NCBI RefSeq assembly: GCF_019320115.1
Contig: NC_089584.1
Span: 51,643,633-51,707,632, forward strand
Direction of reading: 5' to 3'
Length of the DNA stretch: 64,000 nucleotides
Source of the DNA: Miscanthus floridulus
Lineage: Eukaryota > Streptophyta > Magnoliopsida > Poales > Poaceae
Every line of letters begins with the position of its first letter. Within the stretch, counting starts at the first letter, position 1. The notes below the pieces were generated by a model. The model was given only the letters and a program-made list of their open reading frames with translations. It searched no databases and was not told the DNA's origin. Shown here in pieces: positions 6,355 to 48,575 of this stretch. The translations under genes were made by a program, and so were the position numbers.

Positions 6355-6680
6355 CGCCTCGCCCAATGCCTTTTGAGATAGCTCTGCCTTGCCCGAGGGC
6401 TCAGGGTTAGTCTCCATCTCACCCAACACCTTTGGGGTGGGCTCGGTCTCACCCAAGGGCCGAGGGATAGACTCCATCTCGCCCGACACCTTTGAGGTGG
6501 CTCTACCTCGCCCGAGGGCTCAGGGCTAGTCTTTGTCTCGCCTGATGCCTTTAGGGCAGGCTCAGTCTTGCCCGAGGGCTGAGGGATAGATTTAGCCTTG
6601 CTCGACCCCAAAGGGGTAGGGTCGGTCTCGCCCAAGAGATAGGGATTGGTCTCCGTTTCGCCCGATGGCAAGGAACAAGC
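6355..6680 (+). repeat. Degenerate ~60-bp tandem repeats in the R LTR
   Basis: The block containing CCCAACACCTTT / CCCGACACCTTT / CCTGATGCCTTT recurs at about 6421, 6481 and 6541, with flanking GCCCGAGGGCTCAGGG-like segments. The same array is present in the 3' LTR at about 51808-52130, so it was part of the LTR at insertion. Confidence 0.75.
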
Positions 6681-14839: not shown

Positions 14840-16476
14840 CACGCTCCAGATTCATGAGCGAATTTGTGAGTTTTCTCTCTCTCTGGCATTACTCTTCCTC
14901 ACTCAGGAACCACCGCGACGCACGGACGCATTCGGCAGAAAGGAAGAAGAAGGAGAGATAGCGGCTCAGAGGCAGAAGAGGAGGTGGGATGAGAACTCCC
15001 CTCCCCCTCCCTATTTAAAGAGGAGGCGCTGTAGCTAAGGAAAGGCGAAAGGTTGGATGAAAAACCCTCTCTCTTCCCCTCTTTAAATACAGAATCAATG
15101 CTGATTGATACCTGAGGGGATGCGCCAGAACTGACGGGACATGCCCCGGTCAATGAGGCATCCCCCCTGGTCAAACTGAACATTGCCTGGGTATGGCCCG
15201 CCACTGACCCGCTCCGAACGCGGCAATTAAGGCGCCCACATAGGCAGACAACCCTTCGCCTCCCCATGCAGGACCACGGGATGATCCGACGATAGGACCT
15301 TTCGGATCTCCTAGGCCAGCCATTTAGCCCAGAAGAGACGACGAACGAACGTCCAAAGAAAGATAAGCATCTCTGCCTTCTTACTTTACGCGTTAAAATT
15401 CATTCTCGAGCTTCCGACCCTGTCAAACGGCGAAGACATGAACATCACTCGGGGGCTGCCAAGGATGTCTACCAATCTAGACATCCTCCTCACCCGACCC
15501 CCTCCGTACGCTTGAAACTAAGGACGCAAAATACGGGCATAAAACTTTGAGTAAAACTGGATGAACTAGTAGACCCTACGCCTCGGTAGCTATGATGTTT
15601 CTATTCGCTAGAAAAATCATGCTCAACGCCTCTCGTGTCTCCAGCTTTGATGTCTACCTTCTCAAGAAGGGTTCAGAGGGGTCCACCTATAGAATCTCCC
15701 CCAAAGGAGAAGCTATCAGGTTGCCCAAGTTAATTAAATGGCTCGGACCGCCACCGAGATACGAAAAACAAAGAATAGTGATTCTTATGCAGGTTACTCC
15801 AACCTCATCACGAACATCAGGGTCCGAACCCCGCACGGACACACCTGGTAGGAGCTTTTCGTCACTCATACCACCAAGGTAACGTTACCGACCCTGCCTT
15901 AATTTCGATTATATTATACATATGCAAAACATCCCAACGCTTTGTGTCGCATCATGAAACAGTCGTCGCCTCATTCGATATAGGCGACCATAGGCTGAGG
16001 TTCGAAGGATGGCCTGCGAAGGGCTCAAGGCCGCCTCATGCCAAATAGAGCCAGGGAGAAATAACTGAGACAAGCCCCAGTGGCCCTGCTTGACCCCGCT
16101 CAGAAGCGGATAGGGACGTCTCAACCTTTTCTCGTTCGATTCTAACCCCGTGCCAAACCCATAGAATCTCCATCGAGGAGAGGCCATCGGGCCACTTGAG
16201 CCTATCGAACGGCTTGGGCATCTACCGGGAGGCGGGTTAAGAAGTTATGGAGTGCCACCAGAGGGCTCTGCCGACCCCATCAGCAAATGATGGACCCGGA
16301 TTCCACACAAATGTACCTATTAGTGAGCTCATTGAGCGTGATACTCGAGCCATCGAGGCAAGTGTCATTTACTCAGCCCCTCTGATTGCGAAAATCGAGG
16401 ATGAGGTAACATGCAAATTACGGCCGACCCCTATTAGACCCTAACAAGGCCCGAGGGCTCGAGCCAATCAATATAG

Positions 16477-19400
16477 TGTAACACCTCGGGTGTTAGCCTT
16501 GCATAACTTGACTTGCATAACATGAGCATGAGCATCAAGCATTTATAAATCATCATTTACAATTGAAACATTTGATCGAAACATATGAAACATTGCTTGT
16601 TATCTCGTGTTTCTTAGAACATATGCATATGATCATGTACAAATGAATGCAAGTGGGTAGTGCTAGTCACTAAAACACCTTAGCTATACTTAGGTTAATA
16701 AAAGGAACCTTGTTCATGAAGGCCACATTTCATGACCAAGCACTTAAGTGATATTCCATGTGATTACTTTCAATAGCTCTATGTGTGACTACTACATGAA
16801 ATGCTTAAATAACCTTGCAAATTGCTCAAACATGCTTAGGATATCATTAGGAACAACTTTGGTATTTAGTGCTAGGGCTAGTTTGGTCTTTAAGCCATGC
16901 CTTGATGTGTTTCCTCTTTTAAATGTGACATGTTTGACTAAAGTTGAACTAGGTGTTAGAGACCTTGCATGGAGGAGTTCACTAAAGCAAAGTTGGAGTG
17001 TTTGACCTAAGGAACAACTTTTATTTTTGGGTCATTGCATGATTCAGCTCCTAACATGTGTGGAATTGGATCACAAAAATTAGAAAAAATCAAACTTCAA
17101 CACTTAACAAATTTGTTCTAAGTCTTTTTTTTCGAAGGCAGTTGACAGGCTTCACTTTGGACTGAATTTTCTCCCTAGATGTTGTGAATTAGAGCTTGAT
17201 CTTTGAACAAGAGTTGTAGCTGGTACCTTGGGCTACAAAACTCATGTAGGGCATTTGCACGAAGGAGCCACGGTTTTGCAGTAATATCGACTTGAAAATG
17301 TGTTGTCAGGCTGCTCCTATCGAGTCTGAACCGACTGAATCGGTGGATTCAGTGGCCAACCGTCCACAGGCGCTGGCCGTCGCGTGGTGGCCGGTGATGG
17401 CCGCGCGCACCATCTGGAGGCCGTACGCCAGCACAGGGCCCAATCATCAGGCATTGACGGCCAGCAAGCCACCAGCGACGTGCTTAAGTCACCAACAAGC
17501 TGGCCGTTCACTCTCACTCGCCTCCCCATGCTCCTCTGCTCAGTGTGCTCGCCATCGCCATCGCAGCCACTCCGCCGAGCTCACCGGCGCTCACCGTCGT
17601 TCCATTCACCAATCAGTCGCGCCCGTAGCTCCGTCTCCACCTTCCCCACCGTTTCCACCTTGCAACGCCCCCATCTGTGCCCTAGGTGAGCCGTGTTTAG
17701 CTTTGCGCCATCGCGGGAACACCCTCGCCGGAGTGTCGCCATGGCCGCTGCAGTGGCCGTGCTTCTCCGGAGCAGCTCCCGCCGTCTAGGTTGCTTAGTC
17801 ACAGTCGTAGGGTTGCCGTAGTTCCGTAGAGCACATCGCTTGGCTTCGCCGTGGCCTCCACTGGCGTAGCGCCGTAGGCCAGCACCACTGCTCCGCCATG
17901 GGCGCCGCCGCCGTCGTTGGCACCGACGAGCAGTCCCACCAAGTAGATGGTTGTGTGCGCAATGTCGAGTAGAACACCTGGTGATGATGTCACCGCCGGC
18001 AAGCTCGCCACCGTCGAGCTCTGGCCGCGCCCGCAGCGTACAGCGCCGCCACTCTGCTTCGGTGTCGATGACATGTGGGGTCCCCTGACCAGCGGGTCCC
18101 ACCTGTCAGCGACAGCAGTAGTGAAGGCTAACTCATTTTGAATCCAGTTTTTGATGTGTTTTGTTATTTTTGTATCTTTAGTTTGGTAGCTCCTAAAATT
18201 GTGAAATAAATATGATTGTGTTGCTTAGGAAGTGTAGTATTGAAGAAAAATATGTTCTTGGGTTCAACAGTAGAAATTTTTGGGGATTTAAATTAGGAAT
18301 TGAAATGTGCTTTTGAATGCATTCAAATTTGTTTATTTTATATCTAGAGTTCCTGTGCTCCAAAAATTATGAAATTTTTGTGGTAGGCTATTCTTGTCAT
18401 ACATGAGCTTGGGTAAAAATTTGAGGACCAGTGCATGGGTAGATCTATAGTTATAGATTTTTCTTTTATAAATAGTTAATCCTTGCATGAATTTTTATAA
18501 ATTAATTATGAGTCCAAAATTCATGAAATTTGTTGGAGGTGATACTAGTACCATATGGATGTTAAGAAAAATAAGAAATCTGTTGCTTGACACTTTTCAA
18601 TAGGATTTTCCATTTATGCTATTTCAAGCCTTGCTTCCTTATTATTTTTGTATAGAATGTTCTACTTAGTAAAATAACATGAAATTTTTATAGTAGTCCT
18701 TTGATAGCATTAGTAAGACTCTGTAAAATTTTGAGAATTTATTAAGCACATTTGATATATATTTATTATTTAACCTAGATATCTAAATAAAATAATAAAG
18801 GCAATTTAATAAATAGTTTGGGCTTCACCATTATATCATCTTAACTGTATTTGGTATGCTGAAACTGTTGGTAGGTTCTAGGTTGTCAAATTTTGAATAA
18901 TTACCTGAAGTAGAAGTGTTATTACTTTATATTGCATGTTAAGTAGTTTCTGGACTGATTCTAGAGTGTAATGAGTTACATGTTGAAACAAGTGTAGACT
19001 GTAAAAATGGTTAATAACAAAGTTGTAGAGAATTTGATAAGCTTTCCAGAAAGTCCAGGATCACTGTTTTTGAATTTATAGAACTCCAGTTATAGGTGAA
19101 ACAAGTAGCTGCTGGTTATGGTGTAGTCGATGCATTGTAGAAATAGTTAAGTAGTAATCGAGAAGAGATATGCACCTACTCAAACAACGCGATGCACTTG
19201 TTAACTTTATGCATTCGTAATACTCATACCATACTCATGCATCTAGGATCGGAGGAAGAGATCACGTTGCTGGAATTCGAAGAAACAGAGGAAGGGAACC
19301 CGCAGGAGAATCCGCAAGCCCCCGCTCCCGAAGGCGTGGAGCAGAACCCTGAAGAGCTTCCGGAGTGCCCTGACCACCGCCCTACTTCCTTTCTACGAGG

Positions 19401-20896
19401 CAAACCCTAGAGCATTATAAGTCTCCCAGTAATTTACAAATGTTTACTTACGTATTTATGATTGATGCATTAGGTTATAAGAGTTGAATGAAACCACTTG
19501 ATGCATGTACATTCCTTGTCCAGATATTAAACCTTTAACCGGTATAGGTCCAGGATCGAATATATGCTTAGCCATGCTTAGACCGGTAGAAGTCGGGTGA
19601 TGTCCTATCACCTGCGAGAGATAGGTGGATACCGGAGCACGGTTGGCTATATCTGCTATCGTGGAACAGAACCATGTGGTAAAAGTAAATTGAGACCGGA
19701 CGGGAGGTCAATAGGGAAGCAACAAGGCATGGAGGTCTTGGGTGTGGACTTATCCCCGTCTATGTCGATTAAGGACTGTACCGTTATTGGCGCTTCTGAC
19801 AAGATTGAATGCATGCCTCTCACTTAGCTGGCCGGATAACTCGTTCCGACCACGAAGCCGAGTAATTCAACTCAGGCCGGGAACCATTCTGTTGTGCGCT
19901 CCTTCCGGGGAATGATCAGACTAAGCCCAAGGGCAGGCTTGGCCTGAGCATCCTGGCATCTGGTGTTCCAGATTGTGCGGCGCGGTACGGACCCACGAAA
20001 TGTGTACCTGAGTTGTACCAAAGGTGACCTAAGACTATCGTGGCTGATAGATCTGGGTTTGTGTTAGGAATAAATTCCCAGCTGGTTGAAATCGATTTGA
20101 ATCGCCGTCTCTCCCGGATAGTGAGAAACTTGGCTAGTCCCAACATCGTAATAACCATATTATGAAACATGATGGTTCAAATGAATATGGAATTACAATA
20201 CCTGCTATGGTTACTATTGTATGATTCTAAATAATATACCACATGTTTGGCATAGGATAGTTGCTAATCTAGAAATGGATAGTTATAATTAACTTGATAA
20301 AAGAATCACAATTGTACAACGGTTAATTGCCTTTTTCGCAAAATATTGTCAAGTTACGTCCACTTATACAGCCTTGCATAATCCTTGGAGTCATTTTATT
20401 TCTGGTTCATGACGGGTAAGTCTAGCTGAGTACATTCTTGTACTCAGGGTTTATTTTCCCATTGTTGCAGATGGCACTGTGTATCATGGTTATTGCAAGA
20501 GTTGCTTCTATCCCGCTGTGGATGAGGAGTAAGCCTTGGGCAGGCTTCTTTAGTAATTCCTATCTTTGCTTTTGTGGACCGTGATCTGGCTTGGCACTGT
20601 ATCAAACTATGTTGGAAACTTTATCTTCGAACTTATTTGCTTCCGCTTTGTTTACCAAACTCAGTTTGTAATAACTTTTTATTCGTACTCTGATGATGAA
20701 AAGTATCTGCGAACTTTATGTAATATGTGGCATGTATGTTGAATCCTGTACGATCTTGGTTGTTGTAAATCGTTTATCGAGACCCGTCGTGGTACTCGAC
20801 GGACTACCGGGTTTATATGAGTTCAAGTATGACAGTGCGACCGCTTGCGGATTGCCATTATACTTGTATTCTTATAAATTGGTCGGTTCCGCGACA
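16477..20896 (+). repeat. 5' LTR of element A (4,420 bp)
   Basis: It starts TGTAACACCTCGGG and ends TTCCGCGACA. An AT-rich 5' part (16477-17280) is followed by a GC-rich island (17290-18130), an AT-rich intron-like stretch (18140-19240) and a split small ORF (19247-20532). The length is unusual for an LTR and the layout looks like that of a gene. Confidence 0.95.
19247..20532 (+). CDS. LTR-embedded two-exon small ORF, putative CX2H-CX2C protein (A 5' LTR copy)
   Basis: Exon a (19247-19399) follows an AG acceptor. It encodes SEEEITLLEFEETEEG, a Pro/Glu/Asn-rich linker and ECPDHRPTSFLR. Exon b (20471-20532) follows ATTGTTGCAG, encodes DGTVYHGYCKSCFYPAVDEE and ends at TAA 20530. The proposed intron 19400-20470 has borders G|GCAAAC ... 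GCAG, a GC-AG type; the 3' LTR copy retains the better consensus GCAAGC. Splicing is in phase 1 and joins CPDH to CKSC as CX2H-X15-CX2C. An ATG at 19237 is in frame but lies before the acceptor, so it would be used only without upstream splicing. Function is unknown. Confidence 0.55.
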
Positions 20897-20898
20897 GC

Positions 20899-20910
20899 TG
20901 GTATCAGAGC
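20899..20910 (+). other. Primer-binding site of element A
   Basis: TGGTATCAGAGC, complementary to the 3' end of initiator tRNA-Met, lies two bases after the LTR end. It is the standard plant LTR-retrotransposon PBS. Confidence 0.92.
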
Positions 20911-21664
20911 AAGATTCAACGTTAATTGTCACAAGTGTATTTAAAAACAAAAGTTTTTGTTTTCCAAAAACCCTTCTCTAGCAACTATTAGTTATATAAT
21001 AGGTATTTGAAATCTAAAGTGTGCCAATGATCACTTTCCTTATGCCCAAATTAAGGACTATTAGGTGGCTATTTAAGTACTAACATGGGGGTTTTTACTT
21101 CGTCGTCCATACGGCGTGCTATGGTATGGATGCCATTCACTTGAGTGGTAATGTATGGATCAAATGCCTCTACGCCAAGGTAAGATGAGTGTATGACCGC
21201 AAGATGTGAGCGTGCGGTCGGGAAGAGTTAGCTTTGGTACGGCTATGTATGCATGCTTGCATGTGTACATGGTACGTATTTAATTGTGGGTTAAATTATT
21301 GTTGGGTAGATTGATACGGAAGTATATGTATGGGGATACATATATGAAAGTATTTACAATTACATTCTGCATATTTCATTATGGGTTTAGGGCTGAAATG
21401 AAATTTTATGCAGGTACACTAACAACGAAACGTGTAGTTCGACTAGTTATGATCTATATGAGAGAACGTATGTATGCCACCGTGTCTACCGTTAGAAACA
21501 AATTTTTTCCTAAGTTTGTAAGGACGTACGGAACGAGCATGCATCATGTTAAATTACCATTCACAAAACTACATGGTTCCTCCCCTTATAAAATTCTCAC
21601 TCGGTTATGTAACTCTTATCTATTATGGCATTGTCTCACAAAAGGGTGCATGTTGATGGTGCAG
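20911..21664 (+). other. Leader of element A between PBS and H3-tail ORF
   Basis: This stretch has no convincing coding potential. An ORF extends upstream from the H3-like ATG to 21284 only by chance; in element B the equivalent frame is closed just upstream. It ends GGTGCAG directly before the ATG, which could be a 3' splice site. Confidence 0.6.
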
Positions 21665-22588
21665 ATGGCACGCACCAAGCAGACTGCTCGCAAGTCCACC
21701 GGAGGTAGAGCTCCTAGCCGTCAGCTTGCTCCACGTACCCGTCAACGTCACACGTTCCTTGGAGAGTTTGGGATGCCTACCCTCTTGTGGAGAGTGCTCA
21801 GCTATGTAGGTTATCCCGATGGAATGGAACCCCGCTACTTTTGGGCAAATGAGCGGTTGGGAGAAGGTCTCTTAGTTACTATGGAGGCCATTGTCCGTCC
21901 CCAAGGTGACGATTCTGAGTGGACAGGTTGGTGTTATGAGTCGACTGGCAGGACTGTTGAAGAAGCAGCTGGCAGGGCAGCCTTTGGGATCCTGAGGGAT
22001 ATCATGGATCGTTTTCCTCAGGAGCTGGCAGCCGCTATGGTTGGAGTCTTTCCAAGAGGTAATCCCTCCACTGACTCATGGCAGCAGGTAAGAGGAAGAC
22101 CCTTGGAAATTGGTGCAGCAGAAGGGCAGAACAGCGATAACCCTGCAATGAGCGCCATGTTCGCAATGATGAGAGTGTTAGACGGAGTCGAGGGTAGCCT
22201 CAGATGTGTGTCTGGTGCTCTTGGTCATGCCCGCGAGGACCGACGTCAGCTTCAGAGGGAGCACGATGTTGAGGTTGAGAGGCTCACCGAAGAGATGACT
22301 CGGTTAACTCACCAACGGAATGCAGCCTGGTCCAGGGAAGATGTCCTAAGAGCTCGATAGTTTGAGCTAGAACAGTAGCTGGCCAATGCGGAGGAATACA
22401 ATGATAATCTGCATGAAGAGGTTCACCTACTGCACAATCAGCTCCACCCTTATGTACCACCTGGAGCCGCAGAAATGGATCTAGAAGGGTACGAGGAAGA
22501 AGAAGAAGTAGCACATGAAGAAGAAGTAGAACCTGGGGAAGGAGATGATTCTGCGTCTGACCTCGATAGTGATCATGATGAGGATTAG
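21665..22588 (+). pseudogene. Extra ORF with histone H3 N-terminal tail mimic (element A)
   Basis: From ATG 21665, directly after GTGCAG, residues 1-13 after Met are ARTKQTARKSTGG, identical to histone H3. The next residues are RAPSRQLAPRTRQR. By H3 numbering, K4, K9 and S10 are kept, while K14, K18, K23 and K27 are Arg. There is no histone fold. Residues 28-165 form an unrecognised domain (FLGEFGMPTLLWRVLSYVGY, GRAAFGILRDIMDRFPQEL). A coiled coil follows (about 165-258), then an acidic tail (EEEEEVAHEEE, DLDSDHDED). The ORF spans 307 codons with two premature TAGs at 22358 and 22376, both CAG in element B. The frame is otherwise open. The H3-like nucleotides follow host H3 codon choice, suggesting capture of a host 5' coding segment. 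The role is unknown. Confidence 0.85.
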
Positions 22589-22939
22589 ATCGCTTAGCGT
22601 GTAGTGGGAAGACTAATGTATTACCTTTATTTATGTAATGGACCTGTAGTTCCAAGTTGGCATTAGTAACCAAACTATCATGTAATGTTAATCGCACGTT
22701 TGGGTAAACGTTAATGCAATTCCAGTTCCTTGTCGGTAATCACGCTTTAAATTGCATGCGTTATGAGCACGATAAGTGGTCAAATTGGCGATGTCATGTT
22801 GCGAGAATAAATTATTATGCCTCTGTTTTTATTGTGTTTTTGAGAATTTTCTCCAGTAATTTTAGTTTGGCATGAGTACCTAATTCATCTGTAATCTCTT
22901 GGCATCGACCAATAATCGCTTATTGTTGCAACTTCGCAG
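22589..22939 (+). other. Spacer between H3-tail ORF and gag (element A)
   Basis: This is AT-rich and non-coding. It ends CTTATTGTTGCAACTTCGCAG immediately before the gag ATG, a plausible 3' splice site with a pyrimidine-rich approach. Confidence 0.6.
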
Positions 22940-23989
22940 ATGACGTGCACCCGTGCTGGAGCTAGCAGCAGCCAGGATGGCAACCATGATGACTTGCCAC
23001 CCCCACCACCACCGTCTGCTCAGGAATTCTTTACCCAGTTCCTAGGGAGCCAAAGGACAATGGAGGAAGCTTTGCACCTCATCGCGCAAAACACTGCTCG
23101 TGGCCAACCACAGCAACCAGGGGCTGAGCCAAATCAGCACAGTTCATTCAAGGAGTTTCTGGACACGAAGCCTCCGATCTTTAAGGTGGCTGAGGAACCA
23201 CTGCAGGCCGACGAGTGGCTTAATACCATCGAGCAGAAATTTCGCCTGCTAAGGGTCACAGAGCACCTGAAAGCTGAATATGCTTCTCATCAGCTGCAAG
23301 GACCAGCAGGAATCTGGTGGACACACTTCCTGTCGTCTCTGCCTACTGATGCGAGAGTGACCTGGGATCAATTCAAGCTGGCTTTTAGGGGACACCATAT
23401 TCCCCCGGGCCTGATGCGCATGAAAGCAGCAGAATTTATGAGGCTCACTCAGGGAACCAAGTCACTCACAGAATATATGCACGCATTCAACAACTTGTTA
23501 AGATATGCTCCAAGTTTCGTGGATACTGAAGAGAAAAAGATTGAGAGTTTCAAGCGAGGTCTGGGTACCAAATTAATGAAGACTATGGCAAATTCTCGAT
23601 GTGCCACGTACAATGAGTTTATTAGTGATGCCTTGACCCAAGAAAACCACAACAACATGCATGCAGTTGCTAAGGGTCGCAAGAGGGCATATGAGGCCGG
23701 TGCATCCGGATCTTTCTAGTCAAAAGCGCCTATCGCAGCTAGGCCACCATTCTGTCCACCTGCATCCAAGTTCAGGCCTCCACCATCGAAAGCTCAGAAT
23801 AATAGGCCACAGAAACCGTTTCGTAAGGCGTTCACTATTGCCTTACCAAAAGGAAATGGCAATCAGGACAGCTCCACCGGATTCAAAAGTAATCAACCTT
23901 GTTTCAACTGCAACCAACTAGGTCATTGGTCCAAGGAGTGCCCCCACCCCAAGAGGAATAGTAACTCAAATCAGAACAATCAGAGGCAG
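22940..23989 (+). pseudogene. gag of element A
   Basis: Starts ATG 22940 (MTCTRAGASSSQDGN) directly after CGCAG. A proline run (LPPPPPPSAQEFF) is followed by the capsid region (FKVAEEPLQADEWLNTIEQK, WWTHFLSSLP, EFMRLTQGTKSLTEYM, YAPSFVDTEEKKIESFKRGL). A CCHC zinc knuckle [14 protein letters not shown] lies at residues 321-334 (from 23900). It is in the same frame as protease and pol, with no stop at the junction, so one Gag-Pol polyprotein is expected. A TAG at 23717-23719 interrupts it where element B has CAG. It would form the virus-like particle and bind RNA. The gag-protease boundary is approximate. Confidence 0.9.
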
Positions 23990-26900
23990 GTGAATGCCAG
24001 GGCACGTCAGGGACAAGTGCATTATACCGCTGTGGAGGAAGTGCCCGCCGGAGAAGTTGTCACGGCTGGTATGTTTCTTGTCAACAAGCATCCTGCTGTT
24101 GTTTTATTTGATTCGGGAGCTTCTCATTCATTTATGAGTCAAGCATTTGCATCTAGACATGATCAAGAAATAATAGAAGTAAGTAAAGGGGGTTTTAACA
24201 TAAGTTCAGCAGGGGGTACTGTTACTACCAAAAAGATAGTCAAAAACGTACTCATCTTGATACAAGGGAGAGAGTACACAACAGATTTGATAATATTGCT
24301 GGGGTTGTCGATAAGTGTAATCTTAGGCATGAATTGGATGAAGGATCATGGTGTTCTTATTGACACTAGCACCCGTACTATTATGTTGAGAGAACCCACG
24401 GGAGGGAATGCTTTTCTAGTTCCACTCTCCCATGATTTCCAACCCCAACATTTAGCCTGTGCTATCCAAACCACCACCATATGTGATATTCCAGTGGTTT
24501 GCGAGTTTCCGGATGTATTTCCAGAGGAATTACCAGGTCTACCACCGGATAGGGACGTGGAATTTAAGATTGAATTAGTGCCAGGTACCGCACCCATATC
24601 CAGAAGGCCCTATAGAATGCCACCCAATGAGTTAGCAGAACTCAAGGTTCAATTGCAAGATCTATTGGACAAAGGTCTTATCCAACCTAGCTCATCTCCA
24701 TGGGGATGTCCAGCATTGTTTGTGAAAAAGAAGGATAAGTCACTAAGAATGTGTGTAGATTACAGACCACTCAATGCTGTGACCATCAAGAACAAATACC
24801 CATTGCCCCGCATTGACATCTTGTTCGATCAACTAGCGAAGGCAAAGGTATTCTCCAAAATTGACTTGAGATCAGGGTACCATCAAATAAAGATCAGACC
24901 AGAGGATATACCTAAAACCGCTTTCTCTACTAGGTACGGCTTATACGAGTATTTGGTTATGTCTTTCGGACTAACAAATGCCCTAGCCTATTTTATGTAC
25001 CTAATGAACTTGGTATTCATGCCCGAACTTGATAAGTTCGTGGTCGTGTTTATCGATGACATATTGATTTATTCAGAAAATGAGTCAGATCATGAAGAGC
25101 ATCTGAGGATTGTCCTATCCAGACTGAGGGAGCATAAGCTATATGCCAAGTTTAGCAAATGTGAATTTTAGATGAGCAAAGTGCCTTTCTTAGGTCACAT
25201 TTTATCCAGATATGGAATCTCAGTAGACCCATCAAAAGTACAAGAGGTCATGGAGTGGAAAGCCCCAACTTCGGTTCATGAAGTTCGGAGTTTTCTAGGG
25301 TTAGCAGGATACTATCGTCGGTTTATTCTAGATTTCTCAAAAATAGCTAAGCCTATGACCAGACTACTTCAGAAGGATGAGAAATACAAATGGACACCAG
25401 AATGTGAAACCGCTTTTCACACCCTTAGAACTTTGTTGACTACAGCACCAGTGCTAGCACAACCAGACATTGAAAAGCCTTTTGATGTATTTTGTGATGC
25501 ATCAGGGATAGGTTTGGGATGTGTACTTATGCAAGAAGGGAGAGTAATTGCATATGCCTCTCGGCAATTGAGGAAACATGAAGTCAACTATCCTACACAT
25601 GATTTGGAACTGGTAGCCGTGGTCCATGCATTAAAGATATGGAGACATTACTTGTTGGGCAATGTATGTCATATCTATACTGACCACAAAAGCCTCAAGT
25701 ATATCTTTACCCAACCAGAACTGAACATGAGACAACATAGATGGTTGGAATTGATTAAGGATTACAATTTGGAAGTGCATTACCATCCGGGTAAAGCAAA
25801 TGTAGTAGCTGATGCACTTAGTCGGAAGTCCCATTGCAACACTATGGAAGCACTATTGGAAGATGGATTCAACTTGCTACATCCTGCCGTACTCCACAAT
25901 ATCACAATCAGTTGTTCGCTTGAGGGCAGAATCATAGAGCTACAACAGACAGATGTAGGAATAAGTCACATCAAGAGAAAAATGCTAGAGCAAGAAACCA
26001 AACATTTTAGATTGGACGAAAGAGGTGTATTATGGTTTGAGGACCGACTAGTGGTGCCAAAAGACCGTGAGCTAAGGAATCAAATCTTAGAAGAAGCTCA
26101 CTCGTCCAAATTGTCTATCCACCCGGGTAGTAATAAGATGTATCAAGATTTGAAAACCCGTTTTTGGTGGACTAAGATGAAGAAAGAGATCATAGCCTAT
26201 GTTGCAAGGTGTGATAACTGCAGTAGGGTAAAAGCCGTCCATATGAAAACCACTGGATTACTTCAGCCACTGCCTATTCTAGGATGGAAATGGGAAGAGA
26301 TCAGTATGGACTTTATTACAGGCCTTCCAACAACGCCATAAGGTCATGATTCAATCTAGGTCATTGTCGATCATCTTACCAAGTCAGCACACTTCATACC
26401 TGTGAACATGAGGTATATAGTTGGGAAATACGCTGAGATATACGTATCCCAGATCGTGAAGTTGCATGGAGTACCCAGGACCATAATCTCGGATAAAGGA
26501 CCGCAGTTCATAGCTCATTTCTGGGAACACTTACACCAAGCTTTGGGAACCAAGCTAATCAGGAGTTCAGCTTATCATCCGCAAACTTCAGGGCAGACAG
26601 AGAGAGTAAACCAAATCCTAGAAGATTTACTTAGAGCTTGTGTTATATCTTCAAAAGGGTCATGGGAGAAATGGTTACCTTTAGCTGAATTCTCCTATAA
26701 CAACAGTTATCAAGCGAGTATCAAAATGGCTCCATTTGAAGCCTTGTATGGCAGAAAGTGTAGAACTCCATTGAATTGGATTGAGCCCGGTGAAAGGAGA
26801 TATTTTGGAATTGATTTTGTCAATGAAGCCGAAGAACAAGTACGTATCATTCAACAACACATGAAGGCAGCTCAATCAAGACAGAAGAGTTATGCCGATA

Positions 26901-27352
26901 GAAGAAGAAGACCACTAACTTTTGAAGTAGGTGACTATGTGTACTTGAGAGTATCACCCATGAAAGGTGTGAAAAGATTTGGGATGAAAAAGAAACTTTC
27001 ACCAAGATATGTAGGGCCATACAAAATTTTGGAACGAAAAGGAAATGTTGCATATAAGCTACAACTACCACCAGAGAGGAGTGCAATCTTTGATGTGTTC
27101 CATGTTTCTCAGCTAAAGAAATGTCTTCGAGTACCGGAAGAAGCTATTGCACCCACCAACGTGCGACTTCAATCGGATTTGACTTATGAGGAAAAGCCAA
27201 TTCGAGTATTAGAAGTGATGGAGAGAGTGACAAGGAGTAAGATAATTAAGTTCTATAAGGTGGTGTGGAACAATCATAGTGAACAAGATGCTACATAGGA
27301 AAGAGAAGATTATCTGCAAGAAGTTTATCCCGCCTTTTTCCAAGAATGGTAG
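23990..27352 (+). pseudogene. pol of element A: protease, RT, RNase H, integrase, chromodomain
   Basis: Same frame as gag. Protease [10 protein letters not shown] is at 24110. RT carries [15 protein letters not shown] and FIDDILIYS (DD at 25055-25060). RNase H starts [12 protein letters not shown] (about 25486) and includes YTDHKSLKY. Integrase has an N-terminal zinc motif ([10 protein letters not shown]..., CDNCSRV), Asp 26309, Asp 26492 and Glu 26600 (D-X35-E). The GPY/F-type segment (KLSPRYVGPYKIL) precedes a C-terminal chromodomain (about 27185-27343). Stops at 25169 (TAG), 26339 (TAA), 26357 (TAG) and 27296 (TAG) stand where B has TGG, CAA, TGG and TGG. The natural stop is TAG 27350. There is no frameshift. 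The copy could move only with proteins from another element. Confidence 0.92.
27185..27349 (+). pseudogene. Chromodomain at the C-terminus of integrase (element A)
   Basis: TYEEKPIRVLEVMERVTRSK, IIKFYKVVWNNHSEQDAT, then a TAG at 27296 in place of Trp and EREDYLQEVYP. This fits the chromovirus chromodomain pattern (P-x-x-IL/VLE, Y-K-V-W-x-x-H, T-W-E-x-E). Such domains can bind methylated H3 and guide integration. The stop removes the last aromatic and acidic part in this copy. Confidence 0.8.
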
Positions 27353-27395: not shown

Positions 27396-30300
27396 TGTAA
27401 CACCTCGGGTGTTAGCCTTGCATAACTTGACTTGCATAACATGAGCATGAGCATCAAGCATTCATAAATCATCATTTATAATTGAAACATTTGATCGAAA
27501 CATATGAAACATTGCTTGTTATCTCGTGTTTCTTAGAACATATGCATATGATCATGTACAAATGAATGCAAGTGGGTAGTGCTAGTCACTAAAACACCTT
27601 AGCTATACTTAGGTTAATAAAAGGAACCTTGTTCATGAAGGCCACATTTCATGACCAAGCACTTAAGTGATATTCCATGTGATTACTTTCAATAGCTCTA
27701 TGTGTGACTACTACATGAAATGCTTAAATAACCTTGCAAATTGCTCAAACATGCTTAGGATATCATTAGGAACAACTTTGGTATTTATTGCTAGGGCTAG
27801 TTTGGTCTTTAAGCCATGCCTTGATGTGTTTCCTCTTTTAAATGTGACATGTTTGACTAAAGTTGAACTAGGTGTTAGAGACCTTGCATGGAGGAGTTCA
27901 CTAAAGCAAAGTTGGAGTGTTTGACCTAAGGAACAACTTTTATTTTTGGGTCATTGCATGATTCAGCTCCTAACATGTGTGGAATTGGATCACAAAAATC
28001 AGAAAAAATCAAACTTCAACACTTAACAAATTTGTTCTAAGTCTTTTTTTTGAAGGCAGTTGACAGGCTTCACTTTGGACTAAATTTTCTCCCTAGCTGT
28101 TGTGAATTAGAGCTTGATCTTTGAACAAGAGTTGTAGCTGGTACCTTGGGCTACAAAACTCATGTAGGGCATTTGCACGAAAGAGCCACGGTTTTGCAGT
28201 AATATCGACTTGAAAATGCGTTGTCAGGCTGCTCCTATCGAGTTTGAACTGACTGAATCGGTGGATTCAGTGGCCGACCGTCCACAGGCGCTGGCCGCCG
28301 CGTGGTGGCCGGTGATGGCTGCGCGCACCATCTGGAGGCCGTACGCCAGCACAGGGCCCAATCGTCAGGCATTGACGGCCAGCAAGCCACCAGCGACGCG
28401 CTTAAGTCACCAACAAGCTGGCCGTTCACTCTCACTCGCCTCCCCGTGCTCCTCTGCTCAGTGTGCTCGCCATCGCCATCGCAGCCACTCCGCCGAGCTC
28501 ACCGGCGCTCACCGTCGTTCCATTCACCAATCAGTCGCGCCCGTAGCTCCGTCTCCACCTTCCCCACCGTTTCCACCTTGCAACGCCCCCATCTATGCCC
28601 TAGGTGAGCCGTGTTTAGCTTTGTGCCATCGCGGGAACACCCTCGCCGGAGTGCCGCCATGGCCGCTGCAGTGGTCGTGCTTCTCCGGAGCAGCTCCCGC
28701 CGTCTAGGTTGCTTAGTCACAGTCGCAGGGTTGCCGTAGTTCCGTAGAGCACATCGCTTGGCTTCGCCGTGGCCTCCACCGGCGTAGCGCCGTAGGCCAG
28801 CACCACTGCTCCGCCATGGGCGCCGCCGCCGTCGCTGGCACCGACGAGCAGTCCCACCAAGTAGATGGTTGTGTGCGCAATGTCGAGTAGAACACCTGGT
28901 GATGATGTCACCGCCGGCAAGCTCGCCGCCGTCGAGCTCTGGCCGCGCCCGCAGCGTACAGCGCCGCCACTCTGCTTCGGTGTCGATGACATGTGGGGTC
29001 CCCTGACCAGCGGGTCCCACCTGTCAGCGACAGCAGTAGTGAAGGCTAACTCATTTTGAATCCAGTTTTTGATGTGTTTTGTTATTTTTGTATCTTTAGT
29101 TTGGTAGCTCCTAAAATTGTGAAATAAATATGATTGTGTTGCTTAGGAAGTGTAGTATTTAAGAAAAATATGTTCTTGGGTTCAACAGTAGAAATTTTTG
29201 GGGATTTAAATTAGGAATTGAAATGTGCTTTTGAATGCATTCAAATTTGTTTATTTTATATCTAGAGTTCCTGTGCTCCAAAAATTATGAAATTTTTGTG
29301 GTAGGCTATTCTTGTCATACATGAGCTTGGGTAAAAATTTGAGGACCAGTGCATGGGTAGATCTATAGTTATAGATTTTTCTTTTATAAATAGTTAATCC
29401 TTGCATGAATTTTTATAAATTAATTATGAGTCCAAAATTCATGAAATTTGTTGGAGGTGATACTAGTACCATATGGATGTTAAGAAAAATAAGAAATCTA
29501 TTGCTTGACACTTTTCAATAGGATTTTCCATTTATGCTATTTCAAGCCTTGCTTCCTTATTATTTTTGTATAGAATGTTCTACTTAGTAAAATAACATGA
29601 AATTTTTATAGTAGTCCTTTGATAGCATTAGTAAGACTCTGTAAAATTTTGAGAATTTATTAAGCACATTTGATATATATTTATTATTTAACCTAGATAT
29701 CTAAATAAAATAATAAAGGCAATTTAATAAATAGTTTGGGCTTCACCATTATATCATCTTAACTGTATTTGGTATGCTGAAACTGTTGGTAGGTTCTAGG
29801 TTGTCAAATTTTGAATAATTACCTGAAGTAGAAGTGTTATTACTTTATATTGCATGTTAAGTAGTTTCTGGACTGATTCTAGAGTGTAATGAGTTACATG
29901 TTGAAACAAGTGTAGACTGTAAAAATGGTTAATAACAAAGTTGTAGAGAATTTGATAAGCTTTCCAGAAAGTCCAGGATCACTGTTTTTGAATTTATAGA
30001 ACTCCAGTTATAGGTGAAACAAGTAGCTGCTGGTTATGGTGTAGTCGATGCATTGTAGAAATAGTTAAGTAGTAATCGAGAAGAGATATGCACCTACTCA
30101 AACAACGCGATGCACTTGTTAACTTTATGCATTCGTAATACTCATACCATACTCATGCATCTAGGATCAGAGGAAGAGATCACGTTGCTGGAATTCGAAG
30201 AAACAGAGGAAGGGAACCCGCAGGAGAATCCGCAAGCCCCCGCTCCCGAAGGCGTGGAGCAGAACCCTGAAGAGCTTCCGGAGTGCCCTGACCACCGCCC

Positions 30301-31814
30301 TACTTCCTTTCTGCGAGGCAAGCCCCAGAGCATTATAAGTCTCCCAGTAATTTACAAATGTTTACTTACGTATTTATGATTGATGCATTAGGTTATAAGA
30401 GTTGAATGAAACCACTTGATGCATGTACATTCCTTGTCCAGATATTAAACCTTTAACCGGTATAGGTCCAGGATCGAATATATGCTTAGCCATGCTTAGA
30501 CCGGTAGAAGTCGGGTGATGTCCTGTCACCTGCGAGAGATAGGTGGATACCGGAGCACGGTTGGCTATATCTGCTATCGTGGAACAGAACCATGTGGTAA
30601 AAGTAAATTGAGACCGGACGGGAGGTCGATAGGGAAGCAACAAGGCATGGAGGTCTTGGGTGTGGACTTATCCCCGTCTATGTCGATTAAGGACCGTACC
30701 GTTGTTGGCGCTTCTGACAAGATTGAACGCATGCCTCTCACTTAGCTGGCCGGATAACTCGTTCCGACCGCAAAGCCAAGTAATTCAACTCAGGCCGGGA
30801 ACCGTTCTGTTGTGCGCTCCTTCCGGGGAACGATCAGACTGAGCCCAAGGGCAGGCTTGGCCTGAGCATCCTGGCATCTGGTGTTCCAGATTGTGTGGCG
30901 CGGTACGGACCCGTGAAATGTGTACCTAAGTTGTACCAAAGGTGACCTAAGACTATCGTGGCTGATAGATCTGGGTTTGTGTTAGGAATAAATTCCCAGC
31001 TGGTTGAAATCGATTCGAATCGCCGTCTCTCCCGAATAGTGAGAAACTTGGCTAGTCCCAACATCGTAGTAACCATATTATGAAACATGATGGTTCAAAT
31101 GAATATGGAATTACAATACCTGCTATGGTTACTATTGTATGATTCTAAATAATATACCACATGTTTGGCATAGGATAGTTGCTAATCTAGAAATGGATAG
31201 TTATAATTAACTTGATAAAAGAATCACAATTGTACAACGGTTAATTGCCTTTTTTGCAAAATGTTGTCAAGTTACGTCCACTTATACAGCCTTGCATAAT
31301 CCTTGGAGTCATTTTATTTCTGGTTCATGACGGGTAAGTCTAGCTGAGTACCTTCTTGTACTCAGGGTTTATTTTCCCATTGTTGCAGATGGCACTGTGT
31401 ATCATGGTTATTGCAAGAGTTGCTTCTATCCCGCTGTGGATGAGGAGTAAGCCTTGGGTAGGCTTCTTTAGTAATTCCTATCTTTGCTTTTGTGGACCAT
31501 GATCTGGCTTGGCACTGTATCAAACTATGTTGGAAACTTTATCTTCGAACTTATTTGCTTCCGCTTTGTTTACCAAACTCAGTTTGTAATAACTTTTTAT
31601 TCGTACTCTGATGATGAAAAGTATCTGCGAACTTTATGTAATATGTGGCATGTATGTTGAATCCTGTATGATCTTGGTTGTTGTAAATCGTTTATCGAGA
31701 CCCGTTGTGGTACTCGACGGACTACCGGGTTTATATGAGTTCAAGTATGATAGTGTGACCGCTTGCGGATTGCCATTATACTTGTATTCTTATAAATTGG
31801 TCGGTTCCACGACA
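27396..31814 (+). repeat. 3' LTR of element A (4,419 bp)
   Basis: It matches the 5' LTR with about 59 differences by eye, nearly all transitions, plus a one-base deletion near 28051. It ends TTCCACGACA, followed by TSD TATAG. Confidence 0.95.
30165..31450 (+). CDS. LTR-embedded two-exon small ORF (A 3' LTR copy)
   Basis: Exon a is 30165-30317 and exon b is 31389-31450 (stop TAA 31448). Both are open. The donor reads GAG|GCAAGC, the better GC-AG consensus than in the 5' LTR copy. The encoded residues equal those of the 5' LTR copy in the parts compared, including CPDHRPTSFLR and DGTVYHGYCKSC. As part of a 3' LTR it is also the template for the next-generation 5' LTR. Confidence 0.55.
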
Positions 31815-31819
31815 TATAG

Positions 31820-33057: not shown

Positions 33058-36000
33058 TGTCGCAGAACCAACCAATTTATAAGAGTACAAGTACAATGGC
33101 AGCCCGCAAGCAGTCGCACTGTCATACTTGAACCCATATAAACCTGGTAGTCCGTCGAGTACCACGACGGGTCTTGATAAACGATTTACAACAACCAAGA
33201 TCGTACATGATTCAACATACATGCCACATATTATATAAAGTTCACAGATACTTTTCATCATTAGAGTACAAATAAAAGTTATTACAAACCGAGTTTGATA
33301 AATAAAGCGGAAGCAATCAAGTTCGAAAATAAAGTTTCCAACATAGTTTGATACAGTGCCAAGTAGGATCACGGTCCACAAAAGCAAAGATAGGGATTAA
33401 TAAAGAAGCCTGCCCAAGGCTCACTCCTCATCCACGGTGGGATAGAAGCAACTCTTGCAATAACCATGATACACAGTTCCATCTACAACAATGGGAAATA
33501 AAACCCTGAGTACGAGAAGGTACTCAGCTAGACTTACCCATCATAAACCAAAAATAAAATGAATCCAAGGATTATGCAAGGCTGTATAAGTGGGGATATC
33601 TTGACAACATTTTGCATAAAGGCAATTGACTTAGTTGTACAATTAGGATTCCTTTATCAATTAATTATGACTATCCATCTCTAGATTAGCAACTATCCTG
33701 TGCCAAACATGTGGTATATCATTTAAAAGCATACAATAGTAACCATAGCAGGTATTGTACTTCCATATTCATCCGAACCATCATGTTCCATAACACAGTT
33801 ACTACGATGTTGGGACTAGCCAAGTTTCTCACTATCTGGGAGAGACGGTGATTCGAATCGATTTCAACCAGCTAGGAATTTATTCCTAACACAAACCTAG
33901 GCATACCGCGTGAAGGCAGCCTTAGGTCACCTTTGGTATAACTCAGGTCCACATTTCGCGGGTCCATACCGCGCCGCACAATCTAGGACACTAGATGCCA
34001 GGACGTTCTAGTCTAGCCTGCCCTTGGGCTCAGTCTGATCGTCCCCCAGAAGGAGCACACAACAGAATGGGTCCTGGCCTGAGTTGAATTACTCAGCTTC
34101 ACAGTCGAAATGAATTATCCGGCCAGCTAAGTGAGAGGCATGTGTTCAATCTTGTCAGAAGCGCCAACAACGGTACGGTCCTTAATCGACATAGACGGGG
34201 ATAGATCCACACCCAAGACCTCCATGTCTCGTTGCTTCTCTATCGACATCCCGCCCGGTCTCGATTTTCTTTTACCCCATGGTTCTGTTCCACGATAGAA
34301 AATATAGCCAACCGTGCTCCGGTATCCACCTATATCTCGCAGGTGATAGGACATCACCCGACTTCTACCGGTCTAAGCATGGCTAAGCATATATTCGATC
34401 CTGGACCTATACTGGTTAAAGGTGTAATATCTGGACAAGGAATTTATATGCATCAAGTGGTTCCATTCAACTCTTATAACCTAATGCATCAATCATAAAT
34501 ACTCAAGTAATCATTTGTAAAATACAGGGAGACTTAGAATGCTCCGGGGCTTGCCTCGTAGAAAGGAAGTGGGGCGGTGGTCAGGACACTCTAGAAGCTC
34601 TTTAGGATTCTACTCCAAGCCTTCGGGAGCTGCGACTTGAGGATGCTCCTGCTGGTCCCCTTCCTCTGCTTCTTTGAAGTCTAGCAACGTTATCTCTTCC
34701 TCCGATCCTAGATGCATGAATTTGGCATAAGGTATTGCGAATGCATACATGCGTACAAGTATAGCATGATGACACATGATGAATGCATTCATATAAGTAT
34801 TCGTAATAGCATGGTGTTAACAAGTGCATCATGTTTATTGAGTACGTGCATATCTCTTCTCGATTATTTAATTAACTACTTCCACAATGCATCTACTATA
34901 TCACAAAACAACAGCTACTTGTTTCACTCATAACTGGAGTTCTATTAATCCAAATGTAGTGATCCTGGACTTTCTGGAAAGCTTATCAAATTATCTACAA
35001 CTTTGTTATTAACCATTTTTACAGCAAACATCATCCCTATTAGGCAACTTATCAAACTACAGAATCTGTCCGAAACCCTTCCAATTTGCATTACAAAGTA
35101 ACAATACTTCTACTTCATGTAATCATTCAAAGTTTGACAACACAAAGTCTACCAACAGTTTAAGTATACCAAATACACTCAAGAAAACCTAATGGTGAAG
35201 CCCAAACTATTTCTTTATATGCCTTTATTATTTTATTTAGATACCTAGGTTAAATAATAAATATATATCAAATGTGCATCATAAATTCTTAAAAATTTAC
35301 AGCGCCTTACTAATGTTATCAAAGGACTACTGTAAAAGTTTCATGCCATTTTATTCAACAAAACATTCTATACAAAAAAGACAAAGTATAAAGGCTTAAA
35401 ATAACATAAATAGAAAACCCTAGTGAAAAGTGTCAAGCAACAGATTTCCTATTTTTCTTAGCATCCTTAGGGTACTAGGATTACCCCCAACAAATTTCAT
35501 GAATTTTGGATTCATAAATAATTTATAAAAAAATTTATACCAGGATTCACTATTTATAAAAGAAAAATCTATAACTACAAATCTACACATGCACTGATCC
35601 TCAAATTTTCACCAGAGCTCATATATGTTAAGAATTGCTTACCACAAAAATTTCATAATTTTTGGAGCACAAGAACTCTAGATATAAAATAAACAAGTTT
35701 GCATGCATTCAAAAACACATTTCAAATCTCCATTTAAATCTCCCAAAATTTCTACTATAAATGTCAAGAATATATTTTTCTTAAATACTACACTTCCTAA
35801 GGAACACTACCAAATTTATTGCATAATTTTTGAAGCTACCAAACTGGAGATCTAAAAATTACAAAACACACTCAAATCTGAATTCAAAATGAACTAGCTT
35901 TCAAATACAGAGTCAATGACCGGTGGGACCCACTGACAGAGGACCCACATGTCATCGAGACAAGAACAGAGCAGGCGGCGCTACTTTACTGGTGCGGCCA

Positions 36001-37561
36001 GAGCTCGCCGACGGTGAACTTGCCGGCGGTGACATCGTCACACGATGATCTACTCGACCTCGCGCACACAATGCACTACTTGGTGGGACCTCTCGTCACA
36101 GCTAGAGACTACGACGGCGTCAATGGCGGGGCGGAGGTGCGGGTCGATGGTGAGACGCCGGTGGAAGCTACGGTGACACAGTCAAACGCTACGCTGAGCA
36201 TCACAGAGCTACGACGAACCTAGCTAGCGCTCTAGCGTAGCCTGGGGTGGTTTGGTTAGGTGGGACAATGGCGACAGAGGTGGCGGCGGAGCTCCGACGA
36301 GGCTGTGTGCGGGGCTGGAGCTTACCGAGCTCAATCAGTGGGCACGGGCTGGCGTAGGGAGTCGCTGGGATGACGATGGTGCTGTTGCGGTGATGGAGAA
36401 GCGGCTAGGCGCAGCTTGTGCCATCAACGACGATGGCGGCGCTATGGTGCTGAGGTTGCTGCTACTGCGGGTGCTGTGAACGGCGAAGGAGAGCCAGGAA
36501 ATGCAAAATGGAGGCATGGCTGAGTGCGGGCGGGTGCGGGAGAGGTAATGCCGTGCTCAGGCGCGTCGTGGCCTGCACGATCAGGGCAACGGCGACATGT
36601 GGCCATCGTGACGTCCACGCGGTGGCTCCATCCTGGCGATGGCCAGCCACTGAACCAGCGTTCAGTTCGTTCAGTTAACCCCAAAGTCAAGCCTGACAGC
36701 GAGTTTACACGGTGAATTATCTGCTAAACCAAAGCTCCAAAGTGCAAACGATCTACACGACTTGTGTAGTCCTATGTACTAGCTACAACTTTTGTTAAGG
36801 GAGCCTGCTCTAATTCACAACCAACATTGAGTAATGTCATCCCCAATGTCAGCCTGTCAGTCTGTCAATGAACAATGACTTAGAAAAATTCGTAAGTGTT
36901 GAAATGTTGATTTTTCTGATTTTTGTGATCCCAATTCAAACATGTTAGGAGCTGAATCATTCAATGACCCAAAAATAAAAGTTGTTCCTTATAGCAAATA
37001 CTACAACTTTGCTTTAGTGACCACCTCCATGCAAGGTCTCTAACACCTAGTTCAAATTTGGTCAAACATGTCACATTTAAATGATGATACACTTCAAAGC
37101 ATGGCTTAATGACCTAATTACCCTTAACCATGAATATCAAAGTTGTTCATAATGATACTCTAAACATGTTTAGGCTAATTGCAAGGTCATACAATCATTT
37201 CATGTATTAGTCACTCATAGAGCTATTTAATGTAATCACATGAAACATGACTTAAGGGCTTGATCATGGGAAGTGACATTCATGAACCATGTTCCATTTG
37301 CTAACCTATGTATTGCCAATATATTTTTGTGACTCAAATCAACCATCTACATGTATCCACTCATGATCATATGCATAGACACATGGAGTCATGAAATAAT
37401 GAGAAAAGTTGCATATGTTCAAAAAAACATGCGATAACAAGCAAATGTTGCAGATGTTTCAATCCAATGTTTCAATTGTAATTGCTTGTTTATGAATGCT
37501 TGATGATCATGCTCATGTTATGCAAGTCAAGTTATGGAAGGCTAACACCCGAGGTGTTACA
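33058..37561 (-). repeat. 3' LTR of element B (4,504 bp)
   Basis: On the minus strand it starts TGTAACACCTCGGG (37561) and ends GGTTCTGCGACA (33058). It has the same internal layout as the A LTR: a GC-rich island at about 35930-36710 and the split small ORF at 33421-34708. Confidence 0.93.
33421..34708 (-). pseudogene. LTR-embedded two-exon small ORF (B 3' LTR copy, one TAG)
   Basis: Exon a runs from about 34708 to 34555 (in-frame ATG at 34717 just before the acceptor). Exon b is 33482-33421 (62 nt, stop TGA). The donor reads GAG|GCAAGC and the acceptor TTGTTGTAG. Exon a carries a TAG in place of CAG shortly before the CPDH segment, so this copy is broken, but the zinc-ligand-like residues CPDH and CKSC remain. 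Intron 33483-34554 is 1,072 nt. Confidence 0.5.
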
Positions 37562-37562
37562 G

Positions 37563-37576
37563 CCCCTCCCCCTTAT
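37563..37576 (-). other. Polypurine tract of element B
   Basis: On the minus strand TATAAGGGGGAGGGGC lies directly before the 3' LTR start, equivalent to the PPT of element A. Confidence 0.88.
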
Positions 37577-42387: not shown

Positions 42388-43296
42388 CTAGTCATGATCA
42401 CTATCGAGGTCAAAGATAGGATCATCTCCTTCCTCAGGCTCCTCATCATCATCTTCTTCCATATCTAGACCATCCTCTTGATCCATCTCTGCGGCTCTAG
42501 GCGGAACATAAGGGTGGAGTTGGTTATTTAGCTGATGAACCTCCTCATGTAGGTTGTTGTTGTACTCTTCCACATTGGCCAGCTGCTGCTCCAGCTCAAA
42601 CTGTCGAGCTCTCAGAACATCTTCTGTGGACCAGGCTACATTCCTCTGGTGAGTTAACTGAGCCATCTCTGCATTGAGCCTCTCAATCTCGGCGTCGTGC
42701 TCCCTCTGAAGCTGACGTCGGTCCTCGCGGGCATGACCAAGAGCACTAGACACACGTCTTAGGCTACCTTCTACTCCATCTAACACCTTCATCACAGCGA
42801 ACATGGCGCTCATGGTAGGGTTATCACTGTTCTACCCTTCTGCTGCACCAATCTCTAAGGATCTTCCTCTTGCCTACTGCCATGAGTCAGTGGAGGGGTT
42901 GCCCCTTGGAAAGACTCCAACCAAAGTAGCTGCTAGCTCCTGAGGAAAGCGATCCATGATATCCCTCAGTATCCCAAAGGCTGCCCTATCAACTACTTCT
43001 TCAGCAGTCCTGCTAGTTGACTCATAACACCAACCTGTCCACTCAGAACCGTCACCTCGGGGATGAACAACGGCCTCCATAGTAACCAAGAGACCCTCCC
43101 CCAACTACTCATTCGCCCAGAAGTAGCGGGGCTCCATTCCATCAGGATAGACTACATAGCTGAGCACTCTCCACAAGAGTGTAGGCATCCCAAACTCTCC
43201 AAGAAACGTGTGACGTTGACGGGTACATGGAGCAAGCTGATGGCGGGGAGCTCTGCCTCCGGTGGACTTGCGAGCGGTCTGCTTTGTGCGTGCCAT
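42388..43296 (-). pseudogene. Extra ORF with histone H3 N-terminal tail mimic (element B)
   Basis: On the minus strand, ATG 43296 directly follows GTGCAG. Residues 1-13 after Met are ARTKQTARKSTGG, as in H3 and element A, followed by RAPRHQLAPCTRQR. K4 and K9 are kept; K14 is Arg, K18 His and K23 Cys. The same unrecognised domain (FLGEFGMPTLLWRVLSYVVY), coiled coil and acidic tail (MEEDDDEEPEEGDD, DLDSDHD) follow. The length is 302 codons, and all length differences from A are multiples of three. Three TAGs lie at codons 64, 141 and 155, where A has CGG, CAG and CAG. The two premature TAGs of A are CAG here, so the lesions do not overlap and the ancestor was open. Confidence 0.85.
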
Positions 43297-48570: not shown

Positions 48571-48575
48571 GCAAG

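Follow-up and report, generated by a model that had tools for sequence, protein, structure and literature searches.

A retrotransposon protein encoded at positions 21,665–22,588 (+) of the window (the whole stretch of 64,000 nucleotides analysed here), and termed ORF0 after its place in the element, begins with the N-terminal tail of histone H3 in nearly unchanged form. Comparison of sequences indicates that this fusion is real, widespread among the relatives of the protein and under selection, and that the tail is joined to a domain of predicted dsRBD fold. In chromatin, the H3 tail carries the marks by which cells silence transposable elements, and examples of histone mimicry have been described in viruses and in certain host proteins. 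The H3-like tail makes ORF0 a candidate decoy or adapter directed at the silencing machinery. The reading tentatively preferred here, to which a little less than an even chance is given, is that ORF0 represents an H3K9-type histone mimic engaging the H3K9-methylation machinery of the host, putatively to blunt silencing.

The H3-like N-terminus and its host element

The program translation of the ORF begins with MARTKQTARKSTGGRAPSRQLAPRTRQRHTF, and this start, read as MARTKQTARKSTGGRAPSRQLAPRTRQRHTFLGEFGMPTLLWRVL, equals histone H3 exactly over its first 14 residues, that is, Met and the 13 residues after it. Beyond them, RAPSRQLA stands in the ORF for KAPRKQLA in H3, and the resemblance extends to approximately residue 22, so that the tail occupies 21,665–21,730 (+), as delimited by the translation, the PDB matches and an alignment of tails. 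Both the 13 residues and the RAPSRQLA segment had been described in the initial annotation, and are borne out by the translation and by phmmer. When residues 1–231 were compared with PDB sequences (E up to 10), phmmer matched 141 distinct sequences, the best 60 of which are H3 chains or H3 peptides, with a best E of 1.7e-5 over residues 1–24. These matches, together with a naive chance of approximately 1.6e-12 for a 13-residue match in 64 kb, rule out a chance resemblance. CENH3 is likewise ruled out as the source, since residues 5–21 track canonical H3. Pfam returns no histone family for residues 1–231, and the protein is thus not an H3 by its fold; the annotated claim that the rest is not a histone agrees with this result and with the dsRBD fold predicted for the body.

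Within a Ty3/gypsy, Tekay-like chromovirus whose LTRs measure 4.4 kb, ORF0 sits downstream of the primer-binding site and upstream of gag; the window holds two copies of this element. Copy A, on the forward strand, is flanked by the target-site duplication TATAG (16,472–16,476, with its counterpart at 31,815–31,819), and its 5′ LTR (16,477–20,896) is 98.7% identical over 4420 columns to its 3′ LTR (27,396–31,814). The primer-binding site TGGTATCAGAGC (20,899–20,910), presumably of the initiator-tRNA type, lies just downstream of the 5′ LTR. ORF0 is followed on the same strand by gag (22,940–23,719; PF03732, E 1.4e-20), the protease and reverse transcriptase (23,990–25,171; PF08284 and PF00078), RNase H and the integrase zinc-binding domain (25,172–26,341; PF17917 and PF17921), the later part of the integrase (26,402–27,298; PF24626 and a weak rve match), and a chromodomain-like C-terminus with the Tekay motif RVTRSK (27,185–27,331), which is interrupted by a stop. 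This order of gag, protease, reverse transcriptase, RNase H and integrase, between LTRs with a target-site duplication, agrees with a Tekay chromovirus. RVTRSK also conforms to the consensus (K/R)-X-(L/T)-R-X-(K/R) that PMC3350952 gives for Tekay chromodomains, a motif that holds a stop in copy B. The second Tekay motif, EEXTWEXE, reads QDATWERE in copy B (6/8), and in copy A is broken by a stop at the Trp.

Copy B lies on the reverse strand, with its 5′ LTR at 44,067–48,572 and its 3′ LTR at 33,058–37,563 (95.7% identical by LTR comparison). Residues 1–231 of its ORF0 (42,604–43,296, starting at 43,296) are 86% identical to those of copy A, and the tail is in frame, with three stops within the first 231 codons. 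Neither ORF0 of the window is intact, as that of copy A is interrupted by in-frame stops at codons 232 and 238 (22,358–22,360 and 22,376–22,378).

The ORF occupies the position of the "ORF0" of the Retrosat2/RIRE3 family, the likeness resting on layout and on the published description. Like the element studied here, Retrosat2, RIRE3, RIRE8, Sorsat2 and ZMsat2 are Gypsy elements of grasses whose LTRs exceed 3 kb and which carry an additional sense ORF ahead of gag-pol, and their ORF0 is described as fast-evolving, with no function assigned (PMC3485330). Homologs bearing ORF0 have been reported from Oryza, maize, sorghum and Brachypodium; the dicots studied yielded no ORF0-bearing homolog (PMC3485330), a distribution from which a grass host is deduced for the window. 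Unlike what is proposed here, hydrolase-like and other functions have been ascribed to that ORF0 from older modelling, and the word "histone" is absent from the available text of the same paper (PMC3485330). Candidate ORF0 relatives in the viral_contigs and genome_contigs collections were pattern matches, none of which was confirmed by tblastn.

Other repeats surround the two copies. The segments 2378–3059 and 3699–5231 are older LTR-like fragments that share 66–70% identity with the LTRs of both copies and represent remains of a related family. Tandem arrays of a related 60-base unit occur at 6372–6590 and 51,807–52,121, within two 1.5-kb stretches that are 92% identical. An ORF at 50,472–51,065 (−) has a Transposase_28 match in Pfam (E 2e-22), a family described as "putative gypsy type transposon". 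Pieces of copia type occur at 58,791–60,641 (+), where gag matches PF14223 (E 6e-27) and a retroviral SH3-like domain matches PF25597 (E 4.7e-19).

Conservation and history of the tail

Residues 1–231 matched 74 database proteins, a search biased toward tailed proteins because the query included the tail. A profile of the bodies alone, with the tails left out, scored against the 7996 candidates sharing most words, gave 446 matches, of which the best 120 of the 446 are listed. Altogether, 165 relatives were retrieved, and the N-terminus is visible in 21 of them: 20 with at least 12 residues ahead of the body motif, and P0074, whose body is broken. The H3 tail is in frame in 14 of these 21; three others start within the tail or just past it (P0077, P0100 and P0162), one carries it out of frame (P0070), and three hold a different, short N-terminus (P0073, P0121 and P0124). 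Six of the visible N-termini were newly added by the body-only profile: P0136 is tailed, P0121 and P0124 are tail-less, and three are partial. Since the tail is in frame in 14 of the 21 relatives, a private accident of the two window copies is ruled out, and it is found in both copies as well as in relatives of subfamilies whose bodies are approximately 50–70% identical. Among the tailed relatives, P0030 (326 residues) is open through to its acidic end, and its tail differs from H3 by Arg at T3 and K4, Leu at Q5 and His at R8.

Sixteen tails, the 14 from the database and the two from the window, were compared in H3 numbering. R2, T6, K9, P16 and L20 are present in all 16; A1, T3, A7, S10, T11, G13 and A21 in 15; K4, G12, A15 and Q19 in 14; R8 and R17 in 13; and Q5 in 10. 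By contrast with K4 and K9, which are retained in 30 of 32 cells, K14, K18, K23 and K27 are retained in one of 64 (K14 in 1/16 tails, the other three in 0/16), the cells not being independent, because seven of the 16 tails share the copy-A type of tail and linker. These seven, which belong to the same subfamily as the window copies, are the two window copies, P0005, P0007, P0019, P0067 and P0074. The retention of K4 and K9 and the loss of the other lysines, read initially from the window sequence, hold in the family, with K9 kept more strictly (16/16) than K4 (14/16). The lost lysines are often Arg or His; their replacement by Arg at all four positions, as first annotated, is true of copy A but not of copy B, where K18 is His and K23 is Cys. 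P0136 has Asp at A1 and Ala at S10, and it retains more H3 residues further on (K14 and T22), which suggests that the captured piece reached approximately residue 28.

The mean pairwise identity among five subfamily representatives is 0.75 for the tail, 0.30 for the linker and 0.59 for the body. A higher conservation of the tail than of the body is not significant by invariant columns (10/21 vs. 33/95, p 0.19). Between copies A and B, codons 1–17 show four synonymous and no nonsynonymous changes (P 0.005), and codons 1–22 four synonymous and two nonsynonymous (P 0.04), while dN/dS amounts to 0.18 for ORF0, to 0.11 for gag and, in two segments of pol, to 0.14 and 0.10. These changes include mutations that followed insertion, and the constraint in the live lineage was therefore probably stronger. 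The initial annotation had named three outcomes that would count against the tail, of which confinement to the two window copies is contradicted by the tailed relatives, and a tail dN/dS near 1 by a value of 0.15 over codons 1–22 (copy A vs. copy B, just six changes); as to stops or shifts in the tails of other members, one of 21 (P0070) is shifted out of frame there, and three of 21 have a different N-terminus in its place. ORF0 exhibits one feature of an H3K9 mimic, namely an H3-like sequence around a methylatable lysine that is kept by selection; a mimic would also be modified by H3 methyltransferases and bound by H3 readers.

Such selection makes it extremely improbable that the tail is a relic, or that it is retained at the nucleotide level (for packaging or splicing) and not as protein, since codons 1–17 lack nonsynonymous changes and the tail persists across divergent subfamilies, even if few tails were sampled, neither window copy is still functional and an acceptor-like site adjoins the tail.

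Regarding the origin of the tail, the protein pattern makes capture from an H3 gene likely. A midpoint-rooted tree was built from 59 bodies out of 62 selected, leaving out P0065, P0071 and P0072, which are tailed and have a broken body frame. In one clade, all visible starts are tailed or partial; in its long-branched sister clade, they are tail-less except for P0067, in which the tail and the beginning of the body are of the copy-A type and the remaining body is that of the sister clade. P0067 may be a product of recombination between families or an assembly chimera. Gain of the tail in one clade and its loss in the other are indistinguishable from the tree. The start context MLMVQ-MA is common to both clades (P0067, P0074 and P0121), with MLLVQ in P0124.

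Predicted fold and choice of start

The body, first annotated as an unrecognised domain, turns out to have a predicted dsRBD fold (alpha-beta-beta-beta-alpha) over residues 33–121 (21,761–22,027, +), according to a structure model and its comparison with known folds. In the same model, the tail is disordered and a long helix spans residues 160–230, in agreement with the coiled coil noticed at the outset (residues 160–231, 22,142–22,357, +). The acidic C-terminus, also pointed out then, is present in the translation and in intact relatives (22,475–22,585, +, start approximate), and lies beyond the stops in copy A.

DRB7.2 and DCL4, two proteins of plant silencing, provide the nearest folds, in a tie with RNase III. 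The dsRBDs of DRB7.2 and DCL4 (PDB 8igd and 9k9p) share 14–17% identity with the ORF0 domain, and no sequence method connects them with it. Pfam finds no dsRBD in the ORF0 proteins, nor any other family above its cut-off; a PDB profile search of the body gives a single row (E 8.2), which falls on the coiled coil; the model yields no row with E up to 0.001 against PDB structures (best 1.3e-3); and five such rows against the viral structure library reveal nothing past the shared fold. A second model, built with seven rows from the tail-less clade and seven from the tailed one, gives the dsRBD fold as well but is not independent proof of it, because its rows span both clades.

Canonical dsRBDs contact RNA through lysines at the start of helix 2 (KKxAK). 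Across the 59 aligned bodies, the lysine pair is present in none, and neither is the third Lys/Arg (0/59), leaving a canonical RNA-binding dsRBD unsupported. The dsRBD-fold domain of ORF0 is probably protein-binding.

The start codons of ORF0 and gag both come directly after an acceptor-like AG (GTGCAG/ATG and CTTCGCAG/ATG, respectively), in contexts that are identical in copy B; the gag-side AG ends at 22,939 in copy A. A putative leader intron would extend over 21,180–21,664 (+), from a donor-like CCAAG/GTAAGA at 21,180 to the GTGCAG ending at 21,664. According to a rough donor matrix, the donor at 21,180 scores alike in copies A and B, and an equally strong one exists at 22,088 in copy A only. 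One donor and two acceptors, placing the start codon of either ORF0 or gag at the head of the next exon, make a splice switch possible. There are 123 ATGs between LTR position 300 and ORF0, and in-frame ATGs lie just upstream of the tail (MLMVQ). The exposure of the N-terminus depends on the putative splice or on start choice because these in-frame ATGs adjoin it; a spliced start followed by removal of Met would expose the H3-like N-terminus. Mimicry of the K9 type, however, would not require a free N-terminus, since the mimics in G9a and LIG1 are internal (PMC9768651, PMC8594673).

Proposed histone mimicry and alternative readings

In the proposed mechanism, ORF0 of an ancestral element would have gained, at its start, the first 21–28 codons from an H3 gene. 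Conservation indicates that the K9 site and its surroundings were thereafter kept by protein-level selection, while the other tail lysines were lost. The H3K9 writers and readers of plants include SUVH4/KYP, CMT2/CMT3 and HP1-like readers. The flexible tail would be methylated at K9 by SUVH-type enzymes of the host, and assembly through the coiled coil would display many tails in a multivalent form, which would compete for H3K9 writers and readers. The dsRBD-fold domain, devoid of the RNA-contact lysines, would dock on another protein, for which a DRB or dicer is plausible, and the net outcome would be weaker silencing during expression of the element.

The pattern of conservation points to the K9 side of the tail, as K9 (16) is stricter than A1 (15), K4 (14) and Q5 (10); K9 is inferred to be the working residue because the other three vary and it does not. 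The loss of K14, K18 and K23 fits the avoidance of acetylation or ubiquitylation, under several of the readings considered here. On the other hand, the change of R8 in three of the 16 tails and the Ala at S10 in P0136 would weaken the ARKS site, and the sister clade manages without a tail.

The same conservation would also fit a tether instead of a decoy, a rather unlikely alternative in which host heterochromatin proteins would read the methylated tail and carry ORF0, with the RNA or integration complex of the element, to heterochromatin. Such a tether would make up for the chromodomain of the element, which bears the Tekay motif and belongs to a group without a full methyl-lysine cage. Group II chromodomains are described as lacking Y24, and usually Y48, of that cage (PMC3350952), with no known binding partner according to the available text of PMC3350952 and PMC12786077. 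However, the association of ORF0 with gag, RNA or integrase is putative, fusions of group II chromodomains alone target heterochromatin, as cited in PMC12786077, and Retrosat2 has been characterised as dispersed (PMC3485330).

A more elaborate form of the preferred H3K9 mimicry is unlikely. Here, ORF0 would be a two-headed silencing antagonist hitting both arms of plant transposon silencing at once: one head, a multivalent H3K9 tail mimic purged of other modifiable lysines, would absorb writers and readers, and the other, a degenerate dsRBD, would dock on plant DRB or dicer proteins. ORF0 and gag would be switched by alternative splice acceptors located exactly at both start codons.

It is improbable that the tail serves as a decoy for proteins reading an unmodified H3 N-terminus, such as the plant VIM proteins (UHRF1-type). 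A bound tail without K14, K18 and K23 would not be ubiquitylatable and would therefore block the maintenance of CG methylation. This idea would account for the invariant R2 and for the loss of those lysines, and UHRF1 is known to ubiquitylate both H3 and the H3 mimic PAF15 (PMC8594673). However, it requires a free N-terminus, itself putative, and agrees poorly with the Asp at A1 in P0136 and with the variation of T3, K4 and Q5 next to a constant K9.

A generic basic arm that takes part in nuclear import or binds nucleic acid, independently of any readout of H3 marks, has a slim chance of being correct. Residues 1–28 contain nine K/R and no D/E, and the frequent Arg or His at the lost lysines would preserve that character, but T6, S10, T11, G13, P16, Q19, L20 and A21 are kept in 14–16 of the 16 tails. 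Uncharged H3 residues are therefore retained beyond what a plain basic arm requires, and the linker, equally basic, is variable.

Several known systems resemble the proposed H3K9 mimicry by ORF0 in part. The tail of influenza NS1 is a pathogen histone mimic; like ORF0, NS1 is a parasite protein with an H3-like tail, although its motif is short and C-terminal, whereas here it is long, N-terminal and carried by a plant transposable element. G9a/GLP, LIG1, ATF7IP and PAF15 are non-histone proteins in which an H3-like segment undergoes methylation or ubiquitylation and is recognised by chromatin proteins (PMC9768651, PMC8594673); these are host proteins, unlike the retrotransposon ORF described here, with its exact 14-residue H3 start at the N-terminus. 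VANC of the VANDAL transposons is also an accessory protein encoded by a plant transposable element, with the anti-silencing role that is proposed here for ORF0, but it binds DNA motifs and acts on DNA methylation, and its abstract makes no mention of histone mimicry (PMC5735166). Similarly, the AlkB-type demethylase ORF of orchid Ty3/gypsy elements is an additional host-like ORF aimed at host regulation, but an RNA-acting enzyme rather than a histone mimic (PMC12786077).

Elements of this type and ORFs of this class have been described before, and no description of the H3 mimicry or of the fold was found. Among the matches listed from the open-access literature, none describes an H3 tail in ORF0, and the one paper listed for the H3 N-terminal sequence together with retrotransposons concerns histone marks at a mouse element. 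In their available text, two reviews of additional ORFs and captured genes contain neither "histone" nor "ORF0" (PMC7264820, PMC13317346), and PMC12786077 contains neither "ORF0" nor "histone mimic".

If the proposal is true, a long copy of the H3 tail, kept by selection, would place a plant selfish element inside the conflict between transposable elements and their hosts over H3K9 methylation. H3-tail mimicry would give ORF0, an accessory ORF reported with no assigned function, a concrete function that is testable with peptides, and would bear on how elements whose chromodomains fall short of a full methyl-lysine cage cope with heterochromatin. Moreover, the naturally occurring retention of some lysines and loss of others would represent a ready-made experiment on which H3 residues are relevant to silencing in plants.
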